Shown piece by piece: positions 9,435 to 58,649 of a stretch of 64,000 bases of DNA. Source of the stretch: Watersipora subatra (taxonomy: Eukaryota; Bryozoa; Gymnolaemata; Cheilostomatida; Watersiporidae). A program made the position numbers and the translations under genes. Positions within the stretch are counted from its first letter, which is position 1. The number at the start of each line of letters is the position of its first letter. Under the pieces are notes generated by a model that saw only the letters and a program-made list of their open reading frames with translations, was not told where the DNA came from and searched no databases. The stretch is taken from the NCBI RefSeq assembly GCF_963576615.1, contig NC_088713.1:44498817-44562816 (forward strand), in the 5' to 3' direction.

Positions 9435-9625
9435 GAGCAGTAGCAGTGAACACTTGTACAGCGGCAGCAGTGTGTTATACAGTTGGATAGGGGCAGCAGT
9501 GTACTATACACCTAGAAAGATGCAGCAGTGTGCTAGAAACTTGGACAGGAGCAGCAGAGTGTTATACACTTGAACAAGGGCAGCAGTGTGTTATACACTT
9601 GGTCAGTGGCAGAAGAGAACTATGC
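9435..9625 (+). repeat. Minisatellite, 29-bp unit, about 6.5 copies
   Basis: GCAGCAG followed by TGTGTTATACACTTG-like sequence recurs at 9464, 9493, 9522, 9551, 9580 and, degenerate, at 9609, giving an exact 29-bp period. An open frame across it simply reads the repeat and is not taken as coding. Confidence 0.85.
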
Positions 9626-10835: not shown

Positions 10836-10985
10836 ATCTGAGCAGCCCCCTGCACACTGCGCTAGTCCTTGTTAATGACACACCAGTTGTTGTGATTACT
10901 ACCAGAGGAAATGAGCTTGACTATGAGTCTGTTGAAATAACACTGAGAAATCTTGAGTATCAAAAAGTCATAAACATTTCATGCC
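10836..10985 (+). CDS. Candidate receptor exon: beta-rich, unrecognised domain
   Basis: The exon is bounded by TTTTAG and GTAAGT and is phase 1 at both ends. It encodes about 50 residues rich in Val, Ile and Thr, ending in an INISC motif. Its end ([10 protein letters not shown]) resembles the YYKELIITC of the later FN3-like exon at 22820. It may therefore be the first half of an FN3-like module placed ahead of the lectin domain. Linkage to the downstream exons rests on strand, phase and proximity only. Confidence 0.55.
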
Positions 10986-13900
10986 GTAAGTCATCTAGAA
11001 TCACAGCGTCCTGAAAAGAGAACTAATAATAGAAATACCAAATTAATAAATTTAAATATTGAAAGAAGTAAAACTCATATTTGTGAATAGCAAAGGAGTT
11101 TTGACTTTTAATAATAAATTTTAAAGCAAATGAAACCCTACCAAATAACTTTAGCTTTTGTTAGCTTTTAACTGAGAATGAAAATAACATAAAATATAAC
11201 TTTACGGCTATTAGTTTTTCATATAAAATAACGGATGTTGCAACATTTTTTTGCAATTATCTTCTTTACCACAATAAATTCAGTGATTAATTGAAGATGA
11301 TAAAACTTTGACCTTTTGCCTTTAGCATTTACTGTATACCTTTAATACTGGTAGGTATAGCAGTACCAGTTCCTTCTTTGTTAAAGGTAACACATATTAT
11401 TATTAAAATACCTAAATTGGTCGCAACCTCTTTATAAAAATATGTTTTGTTTTTAGTTTATTCACCAACTTACAAAAATTGGGCATGTGATAAATAAAAT
11501 ATTTTGAATTTTTTCTATTGAACTGCTAAACACAACAACTTTGCATTCATGATTTGCCCAATTGGCATATGTAAGTAAATGTATTAGCAAAATTTTATTA
11601 TCGGTTCATATAAAAATAGCACTCATATTGAAATGATCCTGGCCTTTATTTAACCAAATCATTTCCTTTGTTTAGCAAGCTTGGAAGTCATTCAGAGGTT
11701 TTTATACAGTCAAATGAAGTTGTCTACACAAGCCCCGCTAATTTACTAGGAGCCAACAGCTACTCAAGAAAAAAACCATTATAAATGCTGTAGATGTAAT
11801 AGCTAATACAATAGAATATGATACACCTAATTGAGCCATAAACCATATGCTATAGGTATACATAATCTAATGCAAAGCAAGCTTAAAAATATGTGGAAAA
11901 TCTACTAGCGCATCATTAAATTTGTAAAAGTAATATGGTTAATGTAATAAGCATTATTACAAATCAGCTGTTTCAAGTGTTGGTTTGATGATGTCACAAT
12001 AATTTATGATATCCCATAAAAACAAATGTAAAATATACTTACATTTGTAACAGCTATGGTAATAATTTCTACCATTCCTAATTGCTGGGATGCAAAGGAG
12101 AGGCTCACTCTGAATATGTACAAAACATAATGCAATGAACTTTAACGTATGTTGCATCTGAGACATACATTATGAAATTTCCTATTAAAACTCAGCGCAA
12201 CATTAAATTTGTAAAAATAATATGGTTAATGTAAATAGCATTATTACAAAGTAAGCTGTTTCAAATATTGGTGGGGCAACATCACAATATTTTATGATAT
12301 TTCATTAAGAAATACGCCAAATATGTTTGCATTTGTAACAGCAATTGTAATAAATTCTCCGATTCTTAAGTGATTTGATTCAAACAAGAGGGTTTCTCCA
12401 ATTATGTATAACATCGATTGCATAAAAATATGTATAGGACAAAACTTTTATGTATGTCGTATCTAAAACATTAATTAATAGTGTTGGTATTAAACCCAGG
12501 AAAATGTCTATCAGGAGAACAAACAATGTAATGCATATTTACATTTGCATGTTTATAACCAGATATTTGCTACAAGCAGTAATTGCAGCTAGATTTGTAG
12601 GTTTTTCCAACATCGCGATGGGAAAGCCATATTACCATAGCAGAACGGCACCGCAAAATAGAAATATAACAGATGGAATTACATCTTATTATTGTGACTC
12701 AGGATTATCTATCCTAGAAATTGAAAGTTGGTGGCAAGTTGATCTTCTGGAAGTGCACAATGTTCGGAGATTGAAGATTTACTATTATTCAGTCAAAGGT
12801 GAATTTATATCTAGTTTTAGGACTAGGAGAATAGACTTCATGTTTAAAAGAATTCAATGAGATATTTTACTACTTTACATGGAAACACCCCCCTCTGAAT
12901 ATATTTTTAATTCAAAGTTTTTATATATTTTTAGATATACATATATATATATATATATATGTATTATAAATGTGCAAACATATATTTAACTGTATATATC
13001 CATTTATATAAGTATATATACACCGATATATATATTTGTATTTACACAAATATTACTATATTGATGCAAGTATATGTATACATTTATTTATATATAAAAT
13101 ACTGGTACAAAAATTTGTGTTTGCATTGCATGGGTTCGACGGTCAAGGTTATCAAACCAATGAAACCATGAACTTGTTGTAAAACATATAGTTGGCGAAT
13201 AAATTAATGCTATTAAATAGGTTAGTGAACAAAATATTTAAATCTTGTTTGATCAATTATTGATAAAATTGTGAAATTATTGGAAAAACATGAATGATTC
13301 CTAATTAAATACCCAGAACGTATTATCTTTCACCATGACTTCTTGTTCTCGCATCCAACATAGAACGCTAGTCCCATTAACTGGTATTAATTAGTATTTT
13401 GAGAGCAATCTTTAGACCCGAGTTCATCGATCATAAAACACAAAGTGTGGAAAGTCTTACATCGTCTTTTCGCAACCGCTCAGAACTCCTACTAAACTAA
13501 TTTTGAGTTAGCCGATGAAAAATAATCTATTTTCTCTAAACCAAGATTAATCATATCAAAAAGAACAATTATCTATGGGTTGAAAGTCTTTTGACAACCC
13601 TTGGGGCAATTTTTTCTGATAAGCTTTTCGCCGCTTTTATGGCCAAAATGTGTTTCCAGTGTAATGTAGTTAGAGAGTGAACTATTAATGTAACTACCTT
13701 ATTGTGTTGTCAAAAAGTTACTTTATCAATGAGTTAAAAATCAAACATAAATGTTTATTCAACAATTGCACTAACAAAGCAAACAATAAACATATCTCTT
13801 TGCAGCAGGGAAAGATCATTTTAGTTAGATTTTGAGTCCTGCTGTATAAACGAGTGATTATTTTGAAGACTATGGAGTTGATCATTGAGGCTTGAGAAAA

Positions 13901-16900
13901 ATTGTATGTAGAAGATAACATGTCACTAAAACAATAAAAACAATTGTTTTGTTTGAGCTGTTTAGCGTTTTATAATTACATTTCAATTTCTAATTTCAAT
14001 TGTTTCTCGTTAGTAAGTATAAACTACAAAAACATGTACATATATGTACCATCTATAATAAAAAGGAATGTTCGCCTAAAGTTGTTCATGTTCGCGTTGT
14101 TTATTGCCTAAAGTTCCAAGGTCAGCGTACCTTTTAGTACTTATAGTTACAGTATAAACATTTGCTTCAGAAATAGTAAGTGTAATAGTTTTAAATTAAT
14201 ATTATGAAATGGCTGTAATCCATGAGTACTTCAAGCATTGCATTAGGAGACGTGAAAAGTAAGAGAAAAAGGTATATTAGAAAAATACACCATTTTATTA
14301 GTTTTTAGAAAAGCTCTTAATTGAAAACATACCTCAAACAACCTAAAAATCAAAAAAATTGTCAATTTTAAAAACTCACCTTCTCTGACCGCATGCAACT
14401 CTCAGAGACACTTTCGGGCAGAAATGAACTTTTAATGTAGACCTTTGAATATCAGGATTCGATATACAAGCGCTACGGGACAAGCTGAGGCAATGAACTT
14501 TTGACCTCGTCATTGGATAGTCCACAAGCATATATTTACCAACATTCAAAGCTTTTGCATTTTGGTAACTACAGGTTTTTGACCAATCCAATGACGAAGT
14601 CCAAAGGTATCCAAAGTCCCGATATCCAAAGGTCTACAATAAAAGCTCGTTTTCGCCCGAAAGTGTCTCTGAAAGTTGTAGTGTTTGACTTGACAATTTG
14701 TTTTGGTTTTTAGGTCATTTGCGGTATATTTTTAATTGAGAGCTTTTCTAAAAATGAATTTGATGGTGTACTTTTTTGTAATATGCCTTCTCTCTTTCTT
14801 CTCACTGCCGCCAATTGCAACGCTCGTAGTACCTGAGCGGTTATGATTAATTAAAGCAGAATTGTCTGCTCACAAAACACTTTAAAATTATTTGGGAAAA
14901 TATTATTCTCAACGTAATCAAAAGTGCATGTTAGTGGTTCTCCACCGATAGAATTTGTTAATAGAGTATTAACCTGTTGAGCAGTTTCTATGGTAATTTA
15001 TGAACTGTAGTTGATCTCAACAAACTATCTCTGAGCATAATGGTTTTTTCAGGTTACATCAATCCCACTTTTTCATACTTCACAAGTTTGCGCAAATCCT
15101 CAGGCAATAACCTCTTGAATGACGTGAGCAGCTGGAGTCAGGTTAAAAATTGTACTGAAACTATTGGGAATCCAATAATAAAAGATTGTAAACCACCAAT
15201 AAGGTTTAGACATGTCAGAGTTGCTAAAGTTTCTACAGTTGAAGTGTCATTAAATGAGGTGATGGTGTTTGGTAAGTAGCAATAAACTTCAAAGCATTGA
15301 GAATGCGTAAGTGACGCTAGATTAGTCAATTTTCAAAGTCTGCAACCGCCATGTAGTAAAGACCTGTGAGTCTAGACCTCTTCGGTAAAGGGTATTTAAA
15401 TGAACTCAAAGCTTTTAAGTTGGGTCCTTTAACTCTCGTAGTAGTGTCAAATAACACTAGTTTATACTGTATGTAGAGTGCATGAATTGATAGCCTAGAG
15501 ATCCAATTGATGGATTTTTTTCTCAAAATACATAAACGGTTTATTTAGAAATTGACATATGGATTGCAGTCACAAAAACCATGGTTAAGTCACAAATCAC
15601 GAAGTTGAGTGATCCGACTTTGAAGTTGCGCAAACTGAATTTATAATATTGGTAAGGATTTTTGTAACACATGCATCTGGACCAATCAAAGAGTGATCTT
15701 CCCGAACATGAAGTCAGTTTAGCCAATAGAAGTCTTTGACCCTGAGAAAAACTCCTTTAAACCCTTTGCTATGCTAAACAGAAAGTACCAAAAATGGCGT
15801 CCGATAAATATAATCGTTTCTTTTTTGACGATTTTAAAGATAACTTTGACATTTTGGACACATACAATGAGTACTTCGGTATTCCAACTGATGTCAAAAG
15901 CAGTGAAAGTAAAGGGAATTACTAGGATATTTTCCTAACAATTGTTACAAGATTATTACAATATTTATTTGTAAGATTATTTATCCGAATTTACAAGATC
16001 AAAGTATATAGTGACTGATGGTGTGCAATATGTTACTGTTGTAATTTTTCTAAAGATTTTGTTGATGATTTGGCTGTGCCCATTAGCGCGATACTGCCAA
16101 GCCGTTATCAATATCTGCCAAATTAAGTAATAAATTTTCTTATAAATATACAGCTATTTCTAAGACAAACAGTTAAAATCTTTTTAGATTTTTAAATTCA
16201 GCATAATTTTTTGGATATAAATACATAAAGCTAGATAAATATCACATCTTCTTGATATTGGTTGCTATGACGGTTTGAAATGTAAACAAAATTGTGCACT
16301 GGTTTTCGTTTCTCAAACTTTAACACCAGTTTTCTCGGAAATATGTTGTCGCGCTAATGGTAAACGTGCATTCAGTTTTTTTGACCATAAAATCTGCTGT
16401 AATTAAGCTGGAATCAAAACTCTTTTGCAAAATAACTTGGAGAACTTTTTCCTACTGCTAGTGCAGATAACTCTAAATCTTATAATTCCAACTTAACAAT
16501 AGTTTCCATGATCATGACACATATTTGAGTCTGCATAAATATTATTAGTTAGATTTGTATTTATCTGTGAGAGTCTTTTCGGATCAAAACAGATAAACTT
16601 CTCTTTGTTGATGAAGCCCTTATCATCCTTCTCATCTGCCCATAGCTTTGTGTCTTATGGTGTTGAGTTGCCTGCAGCCTGCTGGTAACTACAGGTTCTT
16701 GCTGTAAAAGTTTGTGGCAGGTGACTGATGATCTCTCATCTTTTGAGTATGGTCCAACAGTTTTATTGCCCTGCTTGGAAATTGTGGTAAAGAACGAACG
16801 GGACAGGCGCCCTCTTAAGGCTGGAACCATATGATACAGTCATCAAGCTGAAAAAACCATTAGCAGTCATAATTTCTATAGCAGGGTGAAATCAAGAAAA

Positions 16901-19900
16901 CTCAATATTCTACTCCTGAAGTTTGTTAGGGTCTTATGAACATATCAGATAGCTCAGAAAGCTATGAATTTTATGATTAATAATAAAAATCTTACGTAGC
17001 AATTCTCAACAAAGCTTAAGCTCTTCATTTACTTGACGTTTGAATAGACTGACAAACTGACAGACATTTCATAATAAAATGGAACATTCTATAACACCAC
17101 TTAAAGAGGTTTCCTAAGAAAAGAAAGCATTAATTGTATCAGATTATGTTTAAAGTCTGTCTCTGAACAAGATTACTCTTTGATGTGAGGTAATTATATT
17201 GTGACAATGTTACATCTTACTAATCTCATCATTTGAATTCTTTACATTTGTCTATAATTTTTAAAGTATTATAGACACTTTCAAATGTCAAGTCTTTTGG
17301 TGTCAAACAATTTGGTTTGCCTCCACGTTTTTGACATATATCTCAACTTCTGAGCAATGGTAGATAGTTTCACGTTTGTGATATTAAGCCCTATTGGAGC
17401 ATCTGCTAGGTTTATGTGAGATCAAACAGTGAAAAAAAAGGGAATGAGGCTACGAGGGTTATTGAGACAAGATCTTGTCAGCCACAAGAACTAGTCCAAG
17501 TTGTTGAAACCCAGTGTCCCAATTGCCAAAACTCAGGCTACCATTGTGGCTGACAAGTTCTTGCCAGCCACAATAGTAGCCAATATGTTCCGTATTTATT
17601 TGAGCTCTCAACTCAACTTCTAACCCCTTCAATGACACACACATTTGATTATTTTGTGTTAATAAAAATGTGGTATCACTTGACTTGCACTATGAGTAGA
17701 CCTACAAGTTATACAACTATGAAAAAAATTTTCACCTGAGCAATTACAACACCCATTTTTAAACTGGAAACATAATTATTTGATTTAGTACTTTTTTAAC
17801 AAGAAGAACGCCAATCATAAAATAAAGCTTTTCTCATTTTATTTCCTTGGGACTCGAAGTCCTTTTTTATAGCAAACTACTGAATGCCAAGCATAGCCTT
17901 GAAAATAAAAAGGTTTGTGCACACAATTTTTTTTCTTATTTAGCATAGCCAACAATTAACATTCAAACAATCACAATTTAAAACATAAGAAAAATTTTTT
18001 GCCTGGTTCAAAAGAGTTTAGAGAAAAACTAAAACAATTGTGAAGGTGTTTAAATGCGAAATACTTAGTAAGTAATGACTAGATAGTTCATTCTACTACA
18101 ATGATTATCCTGAAAAAAATGATGCTGATACAATTAAAACCACATGGAAAATAAAATAAAAATGATGAGTATTTCAAATTAATAGTAACAATAATTACAT
18201 AAAAGTGTTTGTATAAATAGTTATCATTGAAGAAAATAATTTATTCTTCAAAATTTGGAATTCAGTGGTTTCTCTCGATACCAAATTATGGGTGAAAATG
18301 AGATATCAGTTTTTAGTGATAGCCTTTAAAAGACAAGAAGTTTAAACTGTGAAATGGTGCATTTGAAATTAAAACAGCACATTTAAAATTGACGATTAAA
18401 AAAACTTGGTAATAGTTATAAGGCTTTAAAAAACATAAATAAACAAATGGAAAAAATAATAATAATACAGAGTAGATACTTAAGTTTCTATTTTGGTGAT
18501 ATTGATAGATATGATTGTCTGGAGCAATAAAACAGTTTATGTGGTAAAACATCTTCCTACAGACTTGATAGTTTGATGTTCTTATCTAGTGTAAAGCAGT
18601 TTTTTGCTACATTTAAATAGCTATAGCTATTAAAAAACAAAATACAGGCAACAAACAGATAAACACTGAGGTTTACATATTTGTCCAGAGGCATCAGTGA
18701 ATCTGGCCATTCTAATATAGACCACATTTTTTACTAATTAATGTTTTTCAGAAAAGTAAAATAGAGTTCAAAAATATTTTTGAACAATATTAATACTATT
18801 TACATTTGTTAAAACTAATTTATTGTAGGAAAAACTTCAGATCAATTCCATGTTTTAGTTACAGATAAAATTAATAGTTCTCAAATTATGATAAAAATGC
18901 TAACCCTTGTTAAAGTACCAAAGTTCAAAAATTGATTCAGACCCAGCAGAGACAAAATTGTGTAATTATTTTGTTAATAAACTAATTTCCTTTTCACGAC
19001 ATAATTACATATTTGAATTAACTAATATTTGACATAGACACATATATTTGCCACATATTTTTACCTACTCATTTTATAAACAAATTATTCACCAAACTAA
19101 TCAGCATTAACTTTTTTTAATTTGCTGACTTCGTAAAAATACCACAAATATGTTGCACAATGAGCCCAGCCACTTTTTCATTCATTTTTGAAAAACTCCC
19201 AGCGGGTCTGAGTCGGAAAAGTTATCCATATTACTACAGCTTATTGCATTGTTATTTTCAATGAAAATAAAAAATGATTTCTTTCAGTACTACTATTTTC
19301 AAACAAAAAAATCAATCAAATTCATTGATAATAAATTAATAAAGATTAGTCCCTGTAATGTGCCAGACTTGAATGGTCACTGCTGAGATGAAGTTGCGGT
19401 AAAAATAAAGTTTCTGGAAAACGAAACTATGCTCAGGATGGGTTGTTAACATAATTTTATTGATTCATGGCACACAGATATTTGAATTATTTATATAAGT
19501 AAATACACAATATGCTAACAAATTAACTACTCACAAGTTAGAGAAGACTTGTACAAAGCTTGTTCAAGCAGCACAATGCAGCTCTTGGCCATACGCAAAC
19601 GCTTTGATGAGATTTACTATGCGGTTGTGGTAGCTAAAGAGGTATGAAAAAACATAAAATATTACCTTATTTAAAATAGTCTAGAATTTTGGAGGCCTCG
19701 GTATTGGCTTTGGCTTATCTTTTTATCATCGACATATCTAATTTCCAAATCAGTAAATTAGCTTGAAGAGCCCTACAATATTGCTGTGTATGAACTCGAG
19801 TCTGCTGCCACACAGCTGGCTTAAGTTAAATGTATGTGATTGTATTTTAAATGAATTTGGTTTAATATGTTCAAAAACAATATGTTGACTTTTGCTTTAC

Positions 19901-22900
19901 TGTGATGTACTGTGCACAGCTGTCACAATGTAATAAGTGTCAAAAACTCATTTATTTAATTATTCAAACTTATCTGCCAAACTTGCTGCCATAGTCCAAT
20001 TTATCAACAAAGTATTGAACAGCTATTCGGCCAGGTAGAAATAACTCATATAATAACTCCTACTTTAATACCAGAAGCTTTTCTCTCCAAAATGTTTTGA
20101 CTTAGTCTTAGGCTTGCCTTGCACTTTCAACATTTACAAAGCTCCCAAGAAACTTGCAGCAATTCTGCAAGCTTGCATTATGACAATTATTTTGTTTTGG
20201 AACAAAAATATAACTCCTACTTTGATACCATCCGAACATAAAATAAATCAATTAACCTGTCAATATATGCACAGAATAACTACTCTTATACTAAAATAAG
20301 ACAAGGTATAATTCTTCAAAGCAATAAAGTGTTTTACTCTTGTCCTCTACACCTACAGTACGCTCTTCTGCATGGTTTTGTTATAAAGTATGGAGGTTTT
20401 CTTTATTAGATAGCTGAAAAACTACCTTATGAATATTATTCAGCAAGAAAGTTATTATAAAAGTACAACAATGCTCGGTTGAAGTGATGAAATGTAACAT
20501 TATCTACCACCCCACAGTGCGCACCACTTGTGAAACAAAACACCGGTTGAGCTGTACACTTTACTTCTATCAATAAAATGCCTTAAACAGACATTTGTCT
20601 TTCACATTTCACTTTAAACCCCACCAAAGGTTTTAGCATTTTCACCTCACCATTTCTCACTCCTACTGCACTAATCAGCGTCAAATTATAACTTTTACAA
20701 TAATAAACACTTTTCATATTAAAATAACTAATTTAAGTGGTTTTAAAAAGAATTGACTGACAGAGTAATCAATAAAACAAATTGTACTTAGTAAAGGTGA
20801 ATATTAGTGTAGCGGAAAATGGCAAACTTCCAATCTAGTTGCGTCTTTTCAGTTTGATTGCAAGTTCAAAGTTTCTGATGTGCCAAATCCATCAGCTTAT
20901 TTCATAAAGTGTTGTGTTTTTTTTGTAATAAAGTGGGTCGAAACAAACAAGAACTCACATGCTGACTGCTTATACAAATGTATTGTAAGACTAAAATCAC
21001 TACAAGATAAATGAAGGTTTCAAAGTGAAAAAATATAGCAGAAAAGACAAATACCTAATTATTCTATAGGTATTTTCTTGTTTTTGTATTTGTTGATTGG
21101 ATAATGTATTACCTGCTGTAGATTTTGCAGACTATTTCATAATCACAACTATATGTTAAAACTGTGACTAATGAAAACTTACTGTATGCTGTAGGAGAAG
21201 CTGAAGTGCAATTTGTCAATGACCGCTTTGTAATTAATTGTCCAGTTAATATACCATTTGGAGCAACCTACCAGATTCAGTCTAGAGTTTCATTATTTGG
21301 AAAACGAATCTCATCTATGCATACATCCGATGCTCAAAAGATTATGAGAAGTAAGTCAAGAAATTTCTTTTTGAATATAAATGTATTTGAAGTTTACAAA
21401 AATATGTGGATTATTTTAGGCATTTAATTTTACTCACTAAAGCAGTATTAAAAGCTTTTTCATGTTGGTAATATAATATATTACTGTAAATGTAAATCAC
21501 TTTGGGTAAACTTGAAAAACTTAACAAGTCAAGTTCTTCATCATAGATATACAGTACACAAGGTATGTGCAAGTTATATGGTCAAAAAAAGATCTGTCAC
21601 CATATTCAGGTAAAACTGGGGGTAACTTTTTGCGAACAACGAACCACAAAAGGCAGATTGACACGGTGGTTGTAAATGACCAAAAACTGCATGGTGTGAC
21701 TTTAGTAGACTCTATGCAAGAGAATTCTGATTAGCATGTAATTAGCTAAATATTATTGTAGAACAACTAACTATACGATGGTAAGATACTTGCTCCAGTG
21801 CACCAAACCCGTGTTCCTCTTAATGATTTCTTTTTGAATAGTTGAATCTGTTTGTAAATTTGTATTACAGCAACTAATTATTGTTCACTAACACTCACAC
21901 ACTAACACGTGCACAGACTCACATGACACACATGCGAATGCGCACGGACAGGTTTTTAATAAAGTGGAATTTATTATTAGAGTTGTGAGCAGATCTAACA
22001 AAATTTAACTGACTATTTTCGTGGTTTCATGTTTTTACTACATGGTTACAGAACACAGGGTTTGCGTATTGTATTGTTTCAAAAAACGGCTTTTGTCATC
22101 AACAATATGATAGCTAGCAGGATGAGAAAAATACTTTTACATCAATTTATGGCAGCATATCAATGCAAAATACGCTGCGGTAACTAACTATAGGAAAACT
22201 TGAAAAACCGAAAAATATATTTATGAAAATTTACAATAATACTGCAATGAACAAAAGGTCATTGGTGCAAGCCACACAATGAAAATGAGTTATCTGAAGA
22301 AACACATATAAACACAATTTCCTCAGTGCCTAATTTCATTAGCCACTAGTTAGAACAAGACCTATACTAGTCAAATGACCATTATAGATGGTGATCCTTT
22401 GCTAGCAAAAGCTAAAGGAAAATAGGAAAACGAAAGTTCGAAACTTTAAATGAGCTTTACAGACAAATCAGGCAACTGTAACATCATTATACAGAAAACA
22501 ACAAAGTTTAGCAGACGAGTAGTAAAAATTAGCAAAGTGTAAAATATGAACATTTTAAAAGAGTAATTTCTTATAAAATTTGATCTGCAGTTGCTGCTTT
22601 AGGCCTACAGCCAAAAACCCAGAAAAAATGGTAAAACATACAATAAAAACATAATTAGCATTATAAAAAATCTTATTCATCACATATATGTTTGTAACAT
22701 AGAATAAAAACAATTATTTAACTTCAACATCATCTCCTACTGACCTTGGGAAAACACAACCGAACATGTCTGTAGTTTAAATATTAATACAATCTGGTAT
22801 TGTTTTGGCAATCTTTTAGCTCCAAAGCCTCCGCATATTCTACAAATTACAAGATCCCACAGCAAAGGAACCATTTCAGGCCATCTTGATGTGATACTGA

Positions 22901-23577
22901 AACTGTCTAAAGAGTCTTATTACAAAGAGCTGATAATAACATGCAATCTGATAGATGAAGTCACTATGTGTGACCCTTCCGGTGTGCTGACGATTCCATC
23001 AAACCCTTCAGGCAACAGTCTTGGTGGTAAGTGAGAACTCCCCAAATACGTTCAGTGTGGTATTATCGCACTCTCAAGGAGTAAAGTAACATTTACTCCT
23101 ATGTTACTGAGTTCTCACTTACCACCAACAGTCTTGGTGGTAAGTGAGAACTCCCCAAATATGTTCAGTGTGGTATTATCGCACTCTTAAGGAGTAGAGT
23201 AACATTTAACCCTTCGAACCCTGGCCATTTTTGTCAACACGCGTCTGCAACCCTTGCAATATATCTAGCGATCCAAAGTTTTTAAACTTTTATTAAATAT
23301 ATCTAAATGTGTTCATAATACAATGGTATTTAGTAAAACACTAGTAAAATGTTGGGCAACCCACAGCAAATGTCATCAAACAGAAAAAACAGTTCTTCAC
23401 CGTTATTCAGGCTATAACTAAACATCTAGCGGTCCAAGTGGTAGGCTCACACTTTACATTTTGACACCAATAAAAGCTTTTGTTGCTGCAATCTGCTGAA
23501 TACAGCTTAATTTTTACTATACTATTGTCTTTCTCATTTGCTCTATTGGTTTTGATTTAACCTACTACTTGAGATAT

Positions 23578-23624
<47 letters not shown>

Positions 23625-26600
23625 CATCTTATATATTACTTACTATAAACATGCTGAAAGTAACAAATAACCTAAGGAAAAATAAGAAGTTTCATAACAA
23701 TTTTAACAAAATGAATGTATTTTTATTACAGGCTTATAGGCTGATTTTTATACAAAATGTAAAAGAATTATTGACATTTTAAGATGCCAAAAAATGTCAA
23801 GCAAGTTAGATATAGAACCTCCAAACACATTGTTTTTAAATGCTATGGCTGTTAACAGAAAATTTTAGTTCAGGCTTAAGAAACTTTTGTAGGAGTAATA
23901 CAGGTAACATTTCCTTTTGATGGCATTGCTGGTAGAAATTATATTATTAAAGCGCAAGTCAGGAGTCACCACGAAAAATCCAACTATGCCAGGAAAAACA
24001 TTATCATTCCAGGTAATGTTTTAATTCAAACACTTAGCACTGCTTGTCAACTATTAAAGAGAAATAAAATATTTAAATGAGTTTTTGATTAAAATTATAC
24101 AAAATATTAAAATCTCATTATTCTTTAGCATCTTAACTTTTAACTTATTTACTCTATAATAATAATTATATTGTTGCTCTCTAAGTAGCAGGTAACACCA
24201 GTTACTCTTTTAGTGTTACATGGTATCAACATTCATGCAAAGGTTAGCTGTAGCCAAAGACCCGAACCAACATCTGATGGTTTTGAACTTTTTGTACTGT
24301 TTCTTGTTGCTACATAGTATATTTTGTGGTGATTGTACTTGTAAGACATCAACTATGTAGGACTGGAGACGTTGTTAGGGCACATCAATTACATAAGTAC
24401 TTTTAGCATATATTTCAATACATCAGAGTCTTGGCTTTCGAATGAGCTTATATTCAAAACACAAAGAATAATAGAACTATGAAATTGAGAGTGTCAAAAG
24501 TATGTCCGACAATAAAAAAACATTTGGTTGTGGTTTCCACAATGTGACGTCACAATTATCATTTAGCCTTAAATCATCGATTCCTTTTGTCGCGCTTATC
24601 TGTGACAATCAGTGCTCTTAAACCCAATGAGTGCTAAAGATCAACTAGCATTATAGATAATCACCAATGCCCGGGGATTTTGTTAATGGCTGATCAATGG
24701 AAACAGATGTTCTAAGTTAATAGATTTGGGATGATTGTTAGATTTTACTTTTTTCATCCTTTCATTCATTTTAAACATTTATAGTAATTATTTAGTACCT
24801 CTTTAAAAAGTACCGCCTATATTTATTCAATGCTTAAATATATTACGTGTTTATTTGATGTTGGAAGTCTTTGCTGACCAATATTTCTGTCTTCTTTTTG
24901 TAGACCCTTTTGGTCTATCAACTAGTATTAGTTTGTTAGTAATAAATGTTTATATTTAATTCATTAAGTGATTTTAACTAAATAATTAATTCTGAAAGTA
25001 ATATTATTAACTTAATATGTTAACTAATAATATATAATTGATAATATAAATTTGAAATAGATATATTTTAGTTTTCTTTTTTTTGCCTTTCCAAGGTTTT
25101 GTTTATTTTATCTCTCACAATTTTGTTCACAGTATTTGCTAAGACCACAATGTTTACAGAAAAATCAACAGCTTATGCAAAAACTGAAGGTAAACTCTGG
25201 AGATATCATAATGGTCACAAGAAAAAAAACTGGTCATAATAAAATAAAAAAATAAATTCCCCATAATAAAAAAAAATCAAATACATTCCCTGCAATAGTT
25301 TTTTCAAATATTGATTCTGATGGCTAATGGCATGTAGGTTTTCTTGCTATTAGCTACTTGAAAATCTTTGCAAATTCTGTTTGATTTCAGAAAATATTTA
25401 TAACTTGTAAAACATAACATAAGATTAAGCTCATACTGCCTTATAAGGTGAGCATTTTATTTGAAAAATACTCTGGTTTTATTTATTTTGCTGATTTTAT
25501 TGACCGGCAACACTTGATAAGTTATGAACATTAGTCCTTGTCATCAATCTTTATGTAACAAACTGCTTAAACAGCATAAAAAATTTCATCGGAGCAAAAC
25601 AAAATTCAAAATTTCATGTTTTATTATTTCATGAATTTAAATTTGATAAACATGCCTTGGCATGTATTTGACAATTATATAGCTATTAATTTTGTTTACA
25701 GTAACAGCTGAGACAACGTTTAATTTTACAGAAGGGTCGATAGCTCATACAAGAACAGAAGGTAAGCTCATAGCTTACCAAACAATCAGAAAATAGTTTT
25801 GCACCAAATAAAATATTGGTTTAATTTTGTGTAATTGTTATTAGGTATTGTTATTGTGCGCATACATAAGACAAAGCAGTTGAAGAGTATTCTGTCTTGA
25901 AACAAAGTTGTTGTACGAAAACAGTAACTGAAAAGTCCGTTAGCTCGATATAATATTGGTACGCGCTTTAACAACATTTTAGTAAAATATTTTTTGAAGA
26001 TGCTTATATAATTTTATTCTCATTTTAATTATGTCTGTGCTTTTTTGACCATTTATTGCGAATAATTTTGTTTGCAGGAACAACTGAGACTACAAAGGTC
26101 ACGGAAAGGTCAAGAGCTTATACAAGTACAGAAGGTAAACTCTTTAATTATCTCAACATTTACAGAAACTACTTGACATAAAATGTTAATTCCTCGATAT
26201 TATTGTGTCAAATATTGACTCAGACATAAATATGTTGGCATATGCATTGCCTTATAATTAGTGCCTAACATTAAATTTACTTTATTTTAGTTAATTTCTT
26301 AGAATACTAAATAAATGCTTTCAGCTACGGAGTTTGGTAGTAAATGCAATACATCTTAAATTTAATTGTAGTTAGTCGAAATTTATATTTTTTAAGTTTT
26401 ACTATTTCATGAATTTAATTATCATCATACACATGCCTTGGCATGTTTTTTACAGTTATATAGCTATTAATTTTTTTTGCAGTCCCAGCTGAGACAACAT
26501 TTAATTTTACGGAAAGGTCGATAGCTTATACAAGAACAGGAGGTAAGCTTTTAGCTTACTAAACTATCACAAAAAAGTTCTAAGCCAAATAAAATGGCGG

Positions 26601-29600
26601 TTTAATTTTGTGTTATTGTTATTAAGTATTGTTACTGTGCACATAACATAAGGCAAAGCAGTTGAAGATTGATCGGTTTTGAAACAAAGTTGGTGTACGG
26701 GAACCGTAACTGAGCAGCCGGATAGCTAGATATAATATTGTTAAGTGTTTGTACAACATTTTAGTAAAATATTTTTCGAAGCTGTTTATATAATTTTATT
26801 CTCAATTTAATTATGTCTGTGCTTTTTCTTGACATTTGTTGCTAATAATTTTGTTTGCAGAGACAGCTGAGACAACGTTTAAGTTTACAGAAAAGTCAAT
26901 GGTTTATACAAGAACAGAAGGTAAGCTTTTAGCTATCTCAACAATCACAAAAAAGTTCTAAACCACATAAATTAGCGGTTTAATTTTGCATTATTGTTAT
27001 TAAATATTGTTACTGTGCACATAACATAAGGCAAAGCAGTTGAAGATTATTCGGTTTTAAAAGAAAGTAGTTGTACGAGAACCGTAACTGAGCAGCCCGA
27101 TAGCTAGATATAATATTGTTAAGTGTTTGTACAACATTTTAGTAAAGTATTTTTTGAAGCTGCTTATAAGAATTTATTTTCAATTTAATTACGTCTGTGC
27201 TTGTTCTTTATGTTTATTGCTAATAATTTTGTTTGCAGAAACAGCTGAGACTACCAAGGTCATGGAAAGGTCAATAGCTCATTCAAGTACAGAAGGTAAA
27301 CTCTTTAACTATTTCAACCTTTACAGAAACTGTTTAACATAAAATATTAAGTGTTCGCAGTTATTGTGTCAAATATTGACCCAGATATAAATATGTTGGC
27401 ATACGTTTTACATTTTTAGTGCCTAGCATTAAATTCAATTTATTTTCATTTAAATTCTTAGAATGCTTTCAGCTACTGACTGTGGTAGTAAAAGCAATGC
27501 ATCATAAACAATAAACATTAGTTTAAGTTTACTAACATAAATCATATAATTAAAGCACTGTTATTTAGTGAAATAAGTTGATTCCCTTTAATTTTATTTT
27601 GATAACAAGCAAATAAAAATGAATCTGAAAAGCTAAGAAATCATTGGTTGAATGATTAGTTTTAAAGCATTTATGTTAAGGAGATCTTGAGTAAGTTTTA
27701 AGCGTTTCTTCCTTTTTACTTATTCAAAATTTATATGACATGAATAATTTTTTTAAAACCTTACTACACATGTATCAAATCTAATGTAATAGCACAATTA
27801 TAATCATCAGACAAAAGTTGGGTTATCCTAAAAAAGGTCACTATTGTTAAAAAATATCTGAAAACATTTAGACAGGGATGGTCATTATATGTTTACCAAG
27901 TGTTGCTGTCAGTAGAGAAATTAAGTTAAAAGGTTTCAAGATTTTTCAGATCATGTTGCTAAAAAAAAACTCAACCAAAAGAACTGGAAAGATTTTCAAG
28001 CAAAAAAAGTATTTGGAAAGCTGCACTTAGAAACTCTCAAGCAAAACTCTGATTGTCTCATCAATGCAGAAAAGTGTGAGAAGCATTTTAATGATTTTTT
28101 CGAATTTGGTTCATAGCTAAAAATTACAAAGTACCTGCTTTATTGATAGTTTTTAATAGTTTTTTTTATGATTGGGAGATTAAAAGCAGTTATGGCTAGT
28201 ATGCTAGCAAACTAGTAAACAACAAGCAGCAAACAAAACTCAACATTTTTCTCAGATTTTTGAACTATTGCAAGGTGATTTAAACACACTTGTAAATACT
28301 AATCAATCGTTAAAATGTTTATTCAAACTGCAGGATGAGGCAGTCACCAGACATCATGAATAGCAATAACTGCGCCTCATACGTAGATGGGTTAGGGCTC
28401 CAACAATAAGATTTGCATCAATATTTTTTAGTTTTTTTTCTGTTGGACCAAAGGAGTTTTTTAACACCTATCGTTTTTGCTATTACCATGTTTTCATTTA
28501 CTTAAAAAAATTTTTTCCCTGAAACTAACTGTTTTTTACATAATATTATTATACTTATTATAATTATTATATATACAGTAAATACCTAAGAGTCACTGCT
28601 TGTTAAAAACTTCAAACAAAAAAACATGCAAGCCTACAATTGTTTATTCAGAACCTGGAGCTTGTTTGATTTTAAAAACTAGTTTCCTAAAGACTCGAAA
28701 TTTTTTGTTTTATTTCAAAAATTGGAAATAGAAAACGATAACTAAATTGTAAAACTATTTTGAGAGCTGACTATGTTCAATTAACTGTATTTGTTTACAG
28801 TTCCAATTGCAGAAGGGAAAGAAAGGAAAAACTTGCCAGAAACCAAAGGTATGAAAAGTGAATGTGAAAAACAATAGACAGCCAACATTTTGACAAATTT
28901 TGAAACTCTCTCAAAAACTTCAAAACATAATGAAATAATTGAAATAATTTTTTTTGTGATCATATCAAATCTTGAAATGATCAAAACAAATGTTCACGAA
29001 GCTGAATTTCAGGTTGTTTTAAGGAGATTCAAGAAAACATCAACTGAACAGTGTGCTTGATTAAATTTTGCACTAAATATGGCCAAGTTTCTTGAAAAAA
29101 ATTTTTTGTGAATTCTTTTTTCAGAACTGTTCATCTAGTTTTGTTTTTACTCTTTGTGTCGTGTTTTAGCATTGCGAGCCAGAATAGCTTTTTAAAATTA
29201 CTTGTCTAAAGTATAAAATTTTGGTTTGTAAAAAAATAGATAGTCATATGTATATAAAAATATAATGTTTTTAATATATGATAAAATAATATTATTATAA
29301 CATCAAAAAATCAAACAAATGTGTCATACAAATAATTTTCTTTCTACTTCTAGAGAAATACTTAGATGTTTGGTTTACTCTCGGCCTTGTTGCTCATATT
29401 GTGATAGTGCTGATAATAGTGGTCACACTGAAAAAGTCTGACAGAGAAGAAAAGGGTAAGTAATACTTTGGTTCAAATGAAAACCAAAACTATCAAAAGA
29501 AGCTTTTTTTTAATCCGTATGATGCTACAGACAACGAAAAAATAATTTACTCTGTTACATATTGGAAACTGAAATTTATTTTCTAGTCAAAGCAAAGCAA

Positions 29601-31567
29601 TTGTTTTTAATGTCCCCACCATGATTTACTAGTCTAATAAACTTTTCGCGGTAATATATAAAATTAATATGCAATATATAGTAGGTTAATGTACTACCAA
29701 GTATTTACTTCATAGTATTGTCTAACTATGTAATTGTATTTTGTTATGATATTATTCTATTTGCAGCAGAACTCTAATGTTATTTGTGAAATAGAATACT
29801 TAGCAAAATCATTCTAAACTTTTTCAACATACTTTCATATTAAATAAATCTATAATTTTATATCTGTCACCGACAATTGCCAATCATTTTTGGTAACTGC
29901 TATAATTTGTCTAGCTCAACAACTAATCTTTGAATGAATAGTTTAACAATTTTGGAAACCTGGCAACAATTTTGGAAACCTGGCAAATAGTTTACAAATA
30001 TTGTTGGGTTAACTTTATTTTTGTTTTTTTGTGTGATTTATTTTCATCAACAAAATTAGTTAAACAAAGGGAAAAAGCTGAAGGATTGATGAAGCCCATA
30101 ATACGCAATATCATAGCTAGTCGTGGCGTTGGTTTTTTGTTATTGTGTAATCAGGGTCAATTTTTACGGGTAACTAGGTATTATTCACCTGTTAAAATAT
30201 GTTTGAAACTCTCTCTCGAAACTAGCCACTGTCTCTACTTTTTTAATAGCCTTAGGAAATCGGTTCAAAAAATGGCCTGCTGGAAATCCACCCTGCGATG
30301 GCCTGCACGGGAAAAAGATTGTGGCAGATTTAGACAGGCATTTGATAATCGGATTTAATATACTGTGCGGGGGGAGGAGGGGGGGTGGGGTGTAATTACG
30401 ATAAAATTCTTGATCCGCTAGAAGTATAATGTGGTATGAATATATTGAACTGATAGGTAGTATAGATGATGATTTGAATAGAGGTTCGGTGTAGGTGGTG
30501 CAAGGTTTTTTGTGAATGTTCTTTAGCCTGCACTTTTGAAGTTATTCAATTTAAAACAACAGGTCTGCAGGATGTTTTGTTGCTATTTTACTCTAATATC
30601 TATTTGTTAAGGCTTTTTTGGAACATTGTATTAAATACTCGAATAATGAAAATGTCGTCCACTAAGTTGTTTTAACACAGAACATAGTCTAATAGCTCTA
30701 TAACTAGTTTGACTAACAACAATGTTAATCCCTTCTTAACGTGACTTGTTAAGTATTATATATTGATAGTGCAGACTACTAGGCGAGTGCCCAGTTTGTG
30801 TATAGTGTAAATTACTAGGTTCTACTCATGTTGTATGTAGGTCACAAGGTTTTACTGAGCTGTAGGACAATTTAATAAGTTTTACTTACCTATTGTGTAG
30901 ATTACTAATTTCCACTCACCTATACTCTAGATTACTAAGTTATACTCATCTATACTGCAGATAACTATGTTTAACTTACCTATCTACTGTATATTACTAA
31001 GTTATACTCATCTCTACTGTATATTACTATGTTTAACGTACCTATAAACTTTAGACTACTAACTTATACCCATCTATACTGCAAATTACTAAGTTCAACT
31101 TATATACTGTAGATTACTAAGTTATACTCATCTATACTGCAGATTACTATGTTTAACTTACCTATATACTCTAGACTACTAACTTATACCCATCTATACT
31201 GCAAATTACTAAGTTCAACTTACCTATATACTGTAGACTACTAACTTATACTCATCTATACTGCAGATTACTATGTTTAACTTACCTATATACTGCAGAT
31301 TGCTCAGTTATGCTCATCTATACTGCAGATTACTCAGTTATACTCATCTATACTGTAGATTACTAAGTTATATTCATTTATACTGCAGATTACTAAGTTC
31401 TACTTAACAAACTTTACTGTAGATTACTCACATTTTGAATAAAACAATTGTATTTAATTTACATTTCAGAAAGAATTCGAGAGCTAAGCTCACTTTTGCT
31501 GCAGAGTCAAAGAGCATCAAAGTCAGCTAAAAGCAGCAGTCTGGTCGAATTCTCCAATCACAGATAA
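10836..31567 (+). CDS. F-type-lectin/FN3 single-pass membrane receptor, multi-exon, 5' end missing
   Basis: Fourteen exons can be joined, all in phase 1: 10836-10985, 12580-12798, 15053-15271, 21195-21350, 22820-23026, 23893-24012, 25133-25189, 25702-25761, 26078-26134, 26483-26542, 26861-26920, 27239-27295, 28801-28848, 29354-29455, then the terminal exon 31470-31567 (the first exon's membership is the least certain). The joined frame has no stop before TAA at 31565-31567. It predicts an extracellular lectin-like domain, FN3-like modules, a Thr/Ser-rich stalk, one transmembrane helix and a 32-residue tail without a kinase or phosphatase domain. I infer a cell-surface recognition or adhesion receptor. 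A signal peptide is not seen. About 550 residues are accounted for. An exon may be missing between 15271 and 21195, where half of an FN3 unit seems absent. Confidence 0.75.
11908..12470 (+). repeat. Tandem duplication of about 287 bp in the intron before the lectin exon
   Basis: Copy 1 starts at GCGCATCATTAAATTTG (11908) and copy 2 at GCGCAACATTAAATTTG (12195). Matching order continues through TAATATGGTTAATGTAA, GCATTATTACAAA, TTTATGATAT, CATTTGTAACAGC and the ATGT(T/C)GCATCT/GTATCT end. The copies have drifted with small indels, so the duplication is old. Confidence 0.75.
12580..12798 (+). CDS. F-type lectin/discoidin-like domain, first-half exon
   Basis: The exon encodes [12 protein letters not shown], then [14 protein letters not shown] and [19 protein letters not shown]. 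The order N-(V/I)-A-x-G-K-P, a D-G turn and W-W-(R/Q)-V-D-L is the hallmark of the first half of F-type lectin (fucolectin) and related F5/8-type domains. The donor at 12799 gives phase 1. The acceptor is either after 12579 or after 12600; both keep the frame. The His that normally sits in the loop before WW in fucose-binding members is not seen, where CDSG stands instead, so fucose binding is doubtful. Confidence 0.8.
12930..13110. repeat. AT-rich microsatellite region
   Basis: A perfect (AT)n run at about 12938-12960 is followed by degenerate TATATA/TATTTA blocks to about 13100. The open frame across it reflects the repeat only. Confidence 0.8.
14215..14842. mobile_element. MITE-like element with long terminal inverted repeats
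   Basis: The left arm from about 14215 to 14530 matches the complement of the right arm from about 14842 down to 14550. Shared blocks are GAGTACT..AGC(A/G)TTGCA, AGAAAAGCTCT(T/C)AATT, CAGAGACACTTTCGGGC and GTAGACCTTTG(A/G)ATATC. Open frames on the two strands read the same peptide (PKVSL), which confirms the symmetry. There is no transposase. The target duplication is not resolved. Confidence 0.8.
15053..15271 (+). CDS. F-type lectin/discoidin-like domain, second-half exon
   Basis: The acceptor TTTTTTCAG and donor GTAAGT bound a phase 1-1 exon of 73 codons. The protein has two cysteines about 15 residues apart (KNC...KDC), an RFRHVRV strand and a [10 protein letters not shown] end. These match the C-terminal half of F-type lectin domains, where R-Y-V-x-(V/I) and L-x-E-V-x-V-(Y/F)-G close the barrel. 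It continues the frame of 12580-12798 exactly. Confidence 0.8.
15672..15908 (+). CDS. Candidate first exon with CCAAT-containing upstream region
   Basis: An ATG in AAAATGGCG context at 15794 opens a 38-codon frame rich in Phe and Asp ([20 protein letters not shown]). It ends at AAA|GTAAAG after 15908 in phase 1. CCAAT motifs stand upstream at about 15672 and 15720. It lies in an intron of the lectin receptor on the same strand. It could be the first exon of a nested gene or of a mobile element. I do not recognise the peptide and saw no following exon. Confidence 0.3.
15909..21194. other. Large receptor intron, mostly featureless
   Basis: Apart from the weak candidate at 19545-19640 and a loose inverted pair around 17477-17575 (CTTGTCAGCCACAA and its complement), nothing was recognised. 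If the lectin protein has a further FN3 first-half exon, it should be here. Confidence 0.4.
19545..19640 (+). CDS. Weak exon candidate with an FN3 F-strand-like motif
   Basis: The frame ends in [14 protein letters not shown] and then GAG|GTATGA. The Y-x-V-x-V-x-A run is FN3-like and the place fits a missing FN3 half. However, its donor is phase 0, unlike every other exon of the receptor, and in the phase-1 frame a stop precedes the donor. It is kept only as a lead. Confidence 0.15.
21195..21350 (+). CDS. FN3-like second-half exon
   Basis: Bounded by GTAG and GTAAGT, phase 1-1, 52 codons. The protein [15 protein letters not shown], then [17 protein letters not shown], aligns in layout with the exon at 23893 ([18 protein letters not shown]). 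Both look like the C-terminal strands of an FN3-type beta sandwich. The matching N-terminal half was not found in the 6-kb intron upstream. Confidence 0.7.
22820..23026 (+). CDS. FN3-like first-half exon
   Basis: Acceptor CTTTTAG, donor GTAAGT, phase 1-1, 69 codons. The protein begins [10 protein letters not shown], as an FN3 A strand does, and continues into [18 protein letters not shown] with two cysteines. Joined to the exon at 23893 it makes one FN3-like module of about 110 residues. The donor region was later duplicated in the intron (see 23013-23209). Confidence 0.75.
23013..23209 (+). repeat. Duplicated exon end and splice donor with an inverted piece between
   Basis: Bases 23013-23096, which hold the last bases of the exon, the GTAAGT donor and the first intron bases, recur at 23126-23209, offset by 113 bp with few changes. 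Between them, 23111-23127 is an inverted copy of the donor segment. The second copy therefore carries an intact decoy donor at 23140. Use of the decoy would add 113 nt and shift the frame. Confidence 0.85.
23570..23625. repeat. AT microsatellite in receptor intron
   Basis: A near-perfect TA dinucleotide run extends from about 23575 to 23625 with a few interruptions. Confidence 0.85.
23893..24012 (+). CDS. FN3-like second-half exon
   Basis: The acceptor is the AG at 23891-23892, and the donor is GTAATG after 24012. Forty codons, phase 1-1, encode [20 protein letters not shown] followed by a basic run and IIIP. An AG at 23904 would put a stop in frame, so the upstream AG is preferred. It completes the module begun at 22820. 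Confidence 0.75.
25133..27295 (+). CDS. Tandem array of six stalk exons (57 or 60 nt each)
   Basis: The exons are 25133-25189, 25702-25761, 26078-26134, 26483-26542, 26861-26920 and 27239-27295. Each starts after TT(T/G)(A/C)CAG or CACAG, ends GAAG|GTAA or GGAG|GTAA, is phase 1-1, and encodes 19-20 residues of the form xAETT(F/K)xxTE(R/K/G)SxAYTRTE. Two forms occur: 57-nt exons with TTKV(T/M)E or TTMFTE, and 60-nt exons with TTF(N/K)FTE. Flanking introns are also duplicated. A block of about 780 bp carrying a 60-nt and a 57-nt exon repeats, and then a 378-bp part repeats again. Thr/Ser density suggests an O-glycosylated spacer between the FN3 modules and the membrane. Confidence 0.8.
27296..28800. 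other. Receptor intron after the stalk array, no exon seen
   Basis: The first 200 bp repeat the intron sequence found after the other 57-nt stalk exons. The rest shows no exon with phase-1 borders. Confidence 0.5.
28801..28848 (+). CDS. Short linker exon before the membrane
   Basis: Acceptor TTGTTTACAG, donor GTATGA, phase 1-1, 48 nt. It encodes a charged linker, [15 protein letters not shown]. It is too short for certainty alone but fits the frame on both sides. Confidence 0.6.
29354..29455 (+). CDS. Transmembrane exon
   Basis: Acceptor CTTCTAG, donor GTAAGT, phase 1-1, 34 codons. After EKYLDVW comes an uncharged run, [19 protein letters not shown], of about 20 residues, followed by KKSDREEK. 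The positive charges after the hydrophobic helix fit the stop-transfer side of a type I membrane protein with the tail in the cytoplasm. Confidence 0.8.
30361..30394 (+). repeat. G-rich tract
   Basis: A run of about 30 bp made almost only of G, with runs of 5-8, stands out in AT-rich DNA. The G runs could fold into a quadruplex. Confidence 0.6.
30760..31430 (+). repeat. Minisatellite, about 30-bp unit, in the last receptor intron
   Basis: Units such as TACTGCAGATTACTAAGTTA plus TACTCATCTA recur about twenty times. Two alternating versions end in ACTCATCTA or ACTTACCTATA. Units are best preserved from 30890 to 31400. The array ends about 40 bp before the acceptor of the terminal exon. Confidence 0.85.
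31470..31567 (+). CDS. Terminal exon: cytoplasmic tail and stop
   Basis: Acceptor TTTCAG, phase 1 entry, TAA at 31565-31567. The 32-residue tail ([14 protein letters not shown], then a Ser/Lys-rich end) has no tyrosine motif and no enzyme domain. The Leu-rich start could form a helix. No close AATAAA follows; the first I see is at about 32399, which would give a long 3' UTR. Confidence 0.7.
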
Positions 31568-31682
31568 AATTTTTGTGAATTTTAAACAGATTCCCGTAGC
31601 AACAGTAGCAATATAATAATAATAATAATATAATTCCTGCAGCAATATAATTATGACTTTCATGTTTTCTTTTTGAGCCATT

Positions 31683-31810
31683 GTCTAGTATTGGTCTTTA
31701 ATCAAAAGTATCACAGGTCTAAAACCATCATTGATGCTACCAAACACTCTAAACCTAAGATACTCTATGAAAGCATATGAAAGTTTGGCTACACTAAAAC
31801 AATGTTTGGC
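31683..31810 (-). pseudogene. Calx-beta-like exon fragment, copy 1
   Basis: On the minus strand this reads AKLSYAFIEYLRFRVFGSIN then DGFRPVILLIKD. It matches the plus-strand segments at 35753 and 38055 closely. The pattern of a strand, then SINDDGFE and a hydrophobic strand recalls Calx-beta-type extracellular repeats, but the family call is inference. It stops early and has no splice borders. Confidence 0.4.
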
Positions 31811-31985
31811 TGATTTCAATTTATTATTGGCATTCGACGCTAACATTTCAAAGTACTCCAAAGCACTCCAAAGTCTATTAGTCAAGTTAAGTTTTTTATG
31901 AATACCTGGCAATACTAAAGAGTTTAGAAATTTCTTTTATGTAGCTCCATATATCTGTTCTATATCTGAGATAAAAATTTTGTGT

Positions 31986-32321
31986 TCACACTGTTTTATA
32001 ATGTCTTTCAAATAACTTAATTTGGTAAAAATTAAATAAGCTTATAAGTGTCTTTGCTTGTTGCCTATATAGTGCTCTACAAGAAAAACTTACTACAGTC
32101 AAGTCTGCTCGAAACTGTACCATTTTCAGGCAATCATTACATTCTAAAAATATACTCAGTCTTTCACCTCTTAAAATAAACTGACAAAGGAAAGTTAAGA
32201 AGTAACTAATTGAATCGTCTAAAAACAAATTCCAATAGCTTGTAACAATAAATCTGATTGTTAGGTTATAAAATAATTGGTTTAATACTATGTCCTTAAT
32301 AAATATAAAAAGGTACAGCAA
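31986..32321 (-). other. Open frame of 111 codons, probably chance
   Basis: A hydrophobic frame rich in Phe, Leu and Tyr, as AT-rich DNA often gives. No motif or splice context was seen. It lies upstream of the Calx-beta-like fragment on the same strand and could be part of the same decayed insertion. Confidence 0.15.
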
Positions 32322-32689
32322 AGAAATTAGGTCACTCTGACTAAACTGTAGCTATTGATCAGGTTCATTAACCTAATTTAAACAGGATTCTTTTAAGTAA
32401 TAAAAGGAAGAAAACCGAACAAAAGCGTGTTGTTTATTTTTTTTAATGATTCTCCTGATCTCTTTGAAGTCAGCTTTAGGGGTTTTGTCTAGAATTACCA
32501 TTTCCCTCTTTCCATGAGTATATAACTACACAATCTCTGTCTGAATTGCATAAAGCAGAAAAACCACGAGTCCAATAATACTTCATAATTGGTTTGCCAT
32601 GTTCAGCCAATGATTCCCTAATTCTCTCTGTTATAATGTTTTGCAGCTTTCACGTTTATTATAATAAATTATTGTTTTACGCTAAACTT

Positions 32690-34525: not shown

Positions 34526-34549
34526 GGTCATTGACATCTTGAAGTGCAT

Positions 34550-58297: not shown

Positions 58298-58621
58298 TGT
58301 AAGTTACTAAGCAAAAATTACGCAGTACCAGACTGCCAGCCGTGACACTCCAAAACCTCCCCTTATGTCACCCTTTCTCCACCTGCACGTTTTACCAGAA
58401 AACACCGTAGTGCCAGACTACACCAGAAGGGTTAATCACGAGTCACCAAGACTCAGAAAGACTCTTAATAATCCTTTCAACAGCGACAAGCACAGAGTCA
58501 CAAGCTACGCGAACGGAGCTCGGATTCCCAATCACAACATGGCCGTTTTTGCTCATCCGGTGGCGCATGCCCATGAACCCTTCTGAGCTATCGTTGGGCA
58601 CCACGTGACTACTAACTCACA
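58298..58621 (-). repeat. 3' LTR
   Basis: On the minus strand it starts TGTGAGTTAG directly after the polypurine tract. It matches the other LTR along its whole length. Confidence 0.85.
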
Positions 58622-58649
58622 TTTCCCCCAGCTTTTAAGAAGCTACCAG

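Follow-up and report, generated by a model that had tools for sequence, protein, structure and literature searches.

A run of short exons on the plus strand of a Watersipora subatra contig raises the question of what sort of protein they encode together, and of how the shared phase of their introns has allowed that protein to be rebuilt. The exons lie at 10836-31567 of a 64,000-nucleotide stretch of DNA (the window; positions 44498817-44562816 of NC_088713.1, here contig C6), which was compared with a genome of 784 Mb in 239 contigs, C4, C2, C3 and C166 among them. A first-pass annotation had joined these exons into one membrane protein with a lectin domain, an FN3 domain, a duplicated stalk and a short tail. 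We give a probability of about 0.6 to the reading that the window gene encodes a type I membrane receptor for recognition or adhesion, in which a second binding domain has been lost in frame and the stalk lengthened; the ligand and function that we propose for it are drawn from sequence comparison. From its N-terminus, the product would comprise a signal peptide, a cysteine-rich N-terminal region, a domain related to F-type lectins (exons B-C), a short module (D), a further domain (E-F), a serine- and threonine-rich stalk of six repeats, a transmembrane (TM) helix and a tail of 40 residues.

One gene among four related loci

Fifteen coding exons were assembled in 10836-31567, namely A to F, the stalk exons s1 to s6, a juxtamembrane exon j, the TM exon and the last exon. 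All have AG acceptors and, with the exception of the last exon, which ends in TAA, GT donors, and together they give one frame that is open from the lectin-like domain to the transmembrane helix, with its stop at 31567. Such a frame had been proposed in the first-pass annotation, and exon borders, phases and the alignment to the closest paralogue, on C4, bear it out. Translated comparison with this paralogue identified two further exons in the window 5' of A, N1 and N2, and a signal-peptide exon lies outside the window. The earlier assembly of 10836-31567 is therefore retained, and its start had been missed. Likewise, the claim that all introns are phase 1 holds for 10836-31567, where all 14 internal exons are phase 1-1, but not for the whole gene, in which the phases are 2 (signal/N1), 0 (N1/N2) and then 1 all through. 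In all, 18 exons including the signal exon, every one open and with intact splice sites, encode a protein of 704 residues. Exons other than those of the stalk are as follows.

-8463 to -8360 in window coordinates (8.4 kb left of the window), plus strand: signal-peptide exon; conserved with C4
1918-2158, plus strand: exon N1, acceptor phase 2 and donor phase 0; first part of the cysteine-rich N-terminal region; tblastn to C4 E 2.7e-20, 56% identity
8948-9068, plus strand: exon N2, phase 0 to 1; tblastn to C4 E 2.3e-9
10836-10985, plus strand: exon A, phase 1-1; end of the N-terminal region; 76% identity with the C4 exon; at least 4 matches in the genome, none outside the four family loci
12601-12798, plus strand: exon B, phase 1-1; first half of the F-type-lectin-like domain; alternative start 12589
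15053-15271, plus strand: exon C, phase 1-1; second half of the F-type-lectin-like domain
21195-21350, plus strand: exon D, phase 1-1; short module and best conserved exon, with identity of 78% to C4 and 68% to C2a
22820-23026, plus strand: exon E, phase 1-1; first half of domain E-F (earlier named FN3); 57% identity with C4
23893-24012, plus strand: exon F, phase 1-1; second half of domain E-F; 58% identity with C4
28801-28848, plus strand: juxtamembrane exon j, phase 1-1; match in C4
29354-29455, plus strand: TM exon, phase 1-1; 71% identity with C4, E 3e-12; hydropathy peak 2.84
31470-31567, plus strand: last exon; remaining tail and TAA stop; 53% identity with C4, stop at the homologous place; 3' flank 31667-32571 aligns

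For exon B, the acceptor at 12601 is more likely than that at 12589, as all four family copies carry an AG at the equivalent place.

The same exon order is found at four loci, the window, C4 at 40.59 Mb, and C2 at 66.64 Mb and 65.68 Mb (C2a and C2b), and these hold all of the genome matches to exon A (at least 4, the weakest with E 0.12) and to D-E-F (at least 10); the genome search scores the best candidates only, and as such these counts are lower bounds. The closest paralogue is C4, whose alignment covers 8686 of the window's first 33000 bases, compared with 1181 for C2a and 735 for C2b (repeats counted in each), and the synonymous divergence (dS) is 0.57 between window and C4, 1.61 between window and C2a and 1.46 between C4 and C2a. 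The window-C4 DNA alignment is colinear through parts of the introns, the TM exon, the tail, the stop and the 3' flank. The conservation of exon order at three other loci, together with an alignment that extends through the stop and 3' flank, places the joining of these exons beyond chance. In C4, the paralogue on which this was checked, lectin and TM exons share order and orientation within about 34 kb; the alternative of two genes run together was rejected, since C4 keeps the exon order. These data support a single gene whose product is a membrane protein that has a lectin-like domain, a duplicated stalk, one TM helix and a short tail. The two copies on C2 are less regular. C2a contains partial second copies of B and D, tails and stalks of C2a and C2b were not found, and in both an exon of phase 1 (DS3, described below) faces a TM exon of phase 0.

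Two tandem arrays lie within the gene. At 9450-9612, 5.6 copies of a 29-bp unit stand inside an open plus-strand frame between N2 and A. A 30/62-bp array at 30872-31428, in the last intron, probably predates the duplication that separated window and C4, because it is matched in the equivalent intron of C4.

A discoidin block and the stalk

All three paralogues contain, between exon F and the membrane, three exons (DS1-DS3) whose product is a discoidin domain (PF00754; E 6.3e-16 for C4, 1.6e-21 for C2a). Taken as a whole, the block of C4 and that of C2a are phase 1-1, with phase 0 introns within. No DS1-DS3 exon was found in the window or in the 20 kb upstream. The place from which the block is absent can be delimited by anchors shared with C4.

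24360-25098, plus strand: interval from which the DS1-DS3 stretch is missing relative to C4, set by the flanking anchors; stalk-like sequence from 25099

On the left, 24332-24359 corresponds to 29385-29412 of the C4 stretch (28 bases only), and on the right 25291-25589 corresponds to 39625-39938. Only 0.9 kb separates the anchors in the window, compared with 10.2 kb in C4, such that the window lacks a stretch of about 10 kb that holds the three discoidin exons. Loss from the window gene, rather than gain in the others, would be the simplest reading, because window and C4 are closest while the more distant copies carry the domain.

In a phmmer search of PDB, the C2a domain was closest to neuropilin-1 (E 7.5e-24, over two stretches) and DDR2 (E 2.9e-20, the top score among matches in one stretch), both membrane proteins. 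Neuropilins have short tails, and neuropilins and DDRs carry a CUB domain or a kinase. The window family differs from them in that Pfam finds neither CUB nor kinase, and the window copy also in its lack of any detected DS exon.

The stalk that follows the gap is encoded by six exons of 57-60 bp each.

25133-25189, plus strand: stalk exon s1, phase 1-1; the intron on its 3' side aligns with that following the stalk exon of C4
25702-25761, plus strand: stalk exon s2, phase 1-1
26078-26134, plus strand: stalk exon s3, phase 1-1
26483-26542, plus strand: stalk exon s4, phase 1-1
26861-26920, plus strand: stalk exon s5, phase 1-1
27239-27295, plus strand: stalk exon s6, phase 1-1; with its flanks, 70% match to the C4 stalk exon

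These exons derive from overlapping tandem duplications: 25682-26360 matches 26841-27508 at 82%, 26463-26953 matches 26841-27329 at 86%, and Tandem Repeats Finder reports a 378-bp unit. They encode 117 residues, of which 36% are serine or threonine, and the stalk is probably O-glycosylated. The search of C4 yielded a single stalk exon (39513-39566 of the C4 stretch), compared with six in the window gene; C4 also has a piece of stalk-intron sequence after j, and the history of its stalk may be less simple than these counts suggest.

The visible outcome of symmetric phases at this locus is the absence of a whole discoidin block and the amplification of a stalk exon. It is likely that the phase 1-1 block was dropped in frame and that the stalk exon was amplified from about one to six. 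The introns of the sister genes on C6 and C4 are still partly alignable, and as such both changes can be read, with a frame that was never shifted. The locus offers a natural case for testing whether symmetric phase 1 exons permit the rebuilding of extracellular receptors. The broader proposal that the exons can be skipped or duplicated freely goes too far: B and C, and E and F, look like half-domains, and the skipping of one of them would keep the frame and probably break the fold.

The same changes might be taken as relaxed constraint in a dying copy, with the loss of the discoidin block and the unstable stalk repeats as its signs. The ratio of nonsynonymous to synonymous divergence (dN/dS) between window and C4 is 0.49 (bootstrap 0.40-0.62; 542 codons in 11 exons, with the stalk omitted and the discoidin exons not shared), which is only moderate. 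In addition, some pairs of stalk exons have dN greater than dS, and the paralogue C2b (C2:65.67-65.72 Mb) is visibly degenerate: its exons C and DS1 contain in-frame stops, and the frame of its exon A is broken. Nevertheless, a dying copy is highly improbable: all 18 exons are open, splice sites, signal peptide and stop are intact, and because its dN/dS is below 1, the frame of the window gene is under purifying selection.

Identity of the modules

Candidate signal exons were sought upstream of N1 as hydrophobic exons with an ATG that end in phase 2; an N1 acceptor of equal phase is present in all three paralogues. The window gene had 4 such candidates (22 kb scanned) and C4 had 2 (7.7 kb). 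C2a had 30 (7.0 kb), of which 29 came from a single simple-sequence stretch, and the 3.3 kb scanned for C2b gave no candidate. One window-gene candidate matches one C4 candidate (E 3.3e-8, 53% identity), with the donor gtaagt in both and two possible start codons in each, and one C2a candidate matches C2b DNA (E 2.3e-6) and not the window. Hydropathy peaks above 1.5 in the 704-residue protein are limited to the signal peptide and the TM helix, and as judged from these the product is most likely a type I membrane protein with a cytoplasmic C-terminus.

The N-terminal region (N1-N2-A) contains seven cysteines common to three paralogues and has no significant relative in Pfam or PDB, where all matches were below cut-off or had E of at least 0.9. 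Exon A belongs to this region, and not to the lectin domain in which it had been placed.

For the B-C domain, the F-type lectin assignment stands as to homology and fails as to motif. B+C alone passes the Pfam cut-off (PF22633, F5_F8_type_C_2, E 5e-7), and a profile of three paralogues matched F-type lectins of known structure in PDB, namely Sm-hPAF (3le0, E 6.8e-7), the fucolectin-related protein 2j1r (0.0018) and FBP32 (3cqo, 0.0043), with alignments mostly over the first half of the domain. The passages on motifs in PMC5712786 give HX24RXDX4(R/K) for fucose and h2DGx for the cation. Neither was found in any of the three domains compared (window, C4 and C2a; C2b left out), even with the first spacing relaxed to 20-30, and C4 alone has an RXDX4R piece, with no histidine. 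A canonical fucose-binding F-type lectin is rejected on the missing motif. Some F-type domains do deviate from it, with CG9095 and five oyster isoforms named as examples (passages in PMC5712786). We consider B-C a relative of F-type lectins by homologous sequence and call it lectin-like, rather than a canonical member.

Separately, exon B had at least 9 matches in the genome. Apart from those at the four family loci, C3 held four and C166 one, all of them weaker (E 3.8e-5 to 6.1e-4, 35-37% identity). These five are lectin-like half-domains, those on C3 at 11.50-11.98 Mb; two of the five score identically, and they may represent a tandem family.

Domain E-F had been labelled FN3, a label that we reject at the level of sequence on the results from Pfam, PDB and hhalign. 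In three paralogues, E+F had no Pfam FN3 match, and its sole match was Tubulin (E 0.028, below the cut-off of that model). In PDB, one search gave only E of at least 0.54 (bacterial IsdH), and a profile gave no match. Alignment by hhalign to four FN3 domains scored 10.1, with a median of 9.7 and a top of 25.0 in 60 shuffles, a comparison of low power with so few sequences. E-F, like the N-terminal region, thus has no significant sequence match in Pfam or PDB. By eye, its strand pattern could be compatible with an FN3-like sandwich. Module D scored 19.4 against the second half of E+F, compared with a maximum of 17.2 in 60 shuffles and with a probability of only 8.6%, and D as a half copy of E+F would be a lead rather than a result.

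The model as first written, with F-type lectin, FN3, duplicated stalk and phase 1 introns throughout, shares with ours the exon order in 10836-31567 and the relation to F-type lectins. The upstream introns of phase 2 and 0, the missing lectin motif and the undetected FN3 (albeit with hhalign weak on so few sequences) make it unlikely in that form.

Possible roles and neighbouring features

In the receptor reading that we favour, the membrane-distal head and the lectin-fold domain would bind a ligand (a glycan, perhaps) that is present at the surface of the cell or on a different cell, and the serine- and threonine-rich stalk would keep the binding modules away from the membrane. The tail of 40 residues contains no tyrosine, and as such lacks the tyrosine motif of an immunoreceptor; Pfam finds no catalytic domain. 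Because of these features, any signalling would be via a partner protein. With no discoidin domain, the window protein should differ from the C4 protein in ligand range or geometry. The same tail and the absent fucose motif would equally suit a structural protein for adhesion or matrix anchoring, in which the lectin-fold domain attaches to matrix or to an adjacent cell and the stalk serves as a spacer and nothing more. This is unlikely, as the tail retains 53% identity with that of C4, suggesting some cytoplasmic role.

The C4 gene retains all modules of the window gene plus the discoidin block, and the window product could instead be a decoy or modulator that shares the distal modules, lacks discoidin, and competes or co-assembles with the full receptor. 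The least diverged exons between the two genes include distal ones, with dN of 0.11 for D and 0.12 for A, followed by TM at 0.18 and B at 0.23. In contrast, the distal exons N1, N2 and C are more diverged (0.33-0.44), and TM and tail are similar in both genes, unlike in a typical soluble decoy. A decoy is therefore very unlikely.

Several observations weigh against a receptor that lost one binding domain and gained a longer stalk. Constraint relative to C4 is uneven, with dN/dS of 0.76 in exon C and 0.84 in j, and the stalk repeats show no clear amino-acid constraint (s2-s5, dN 0.15 and dS 0.08, from few changes). For the full-length protein of the window gene, the two F5/8C models score below their Pfam cut-offs (25.2 versus 27.8 bits for PF22633 and 20.2 versus 28.2 for the other), while C4 and C2a pass, and sugar binding may have been lost because the fucose motif is absent. 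The proposed direction, loss and not gain, rests on the closeness of window and C4 within one genome. In addition, there may be further family members.

Mosaic lectin-like membrane receptors are a known sort of protein, and the new element here is a swap, still readable in the sequence, of a binding domain for a repeated stalk between sister genes. The passages on Drosophila CG9095 and furrowed in PMC5712786 describe mosaic membrane F-type lectins that, like the window family, join an F-type lectin domain to further extracellular modules and a predicted TM. Theirs are CCP and CTLD modules, of which Pfam finds none in the window family; the latter has domain E-F, a repeated stalk and discoidin exons, these last absent in the window copy. 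No protein with the same module order was found among the papers listed from the published literature (20 of 100 in one listing and 12 of 155 in another) or in the passages of PMC5712786, which does not prove that there is none. Tentatively, these loci could represent a new animal receptor family with a cysteine-rich head, a lectin-fold domain, a non-FN3 domain E-F, an optional discoidin domain and a modular stalk, whose paralogues diversify as entire blocks of phase 1-1 exons are gained and lost. In that case the window copy would have swapped its membrane-proximal binding domain for a mucin-like stalk of six repeats, altering reach and specificity in one lineage.

Beyond the gene, no Rfam model reached its gathering threshold in the window. 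Pieces of a non-long-terminal-repeat retrotransposon lie at 33330-34550 on the minus strand (RVT_1, E 1.5e-11; zf-RVT, E 0.006, below cut-off), with a close copy in the C2b stretch. A GC-rich segment on the minus strand at 58001-60344 (51% in 58001-60000, compared with 28-37% in most of the window) includes an open reading frame at 59250-60344 that belongs to a retroelement: it contains an integrase core (rve, E 6.3e-8) and a region resembling reverse transcriptase (RVT_3, slightly below cut-off). At 53198-53692, also on the minus strand, an open frame of 164 residues contains ankyrin repeats (Ank_2, E 8.4e-9) and is perhaps an exon of a neighbouring gene.

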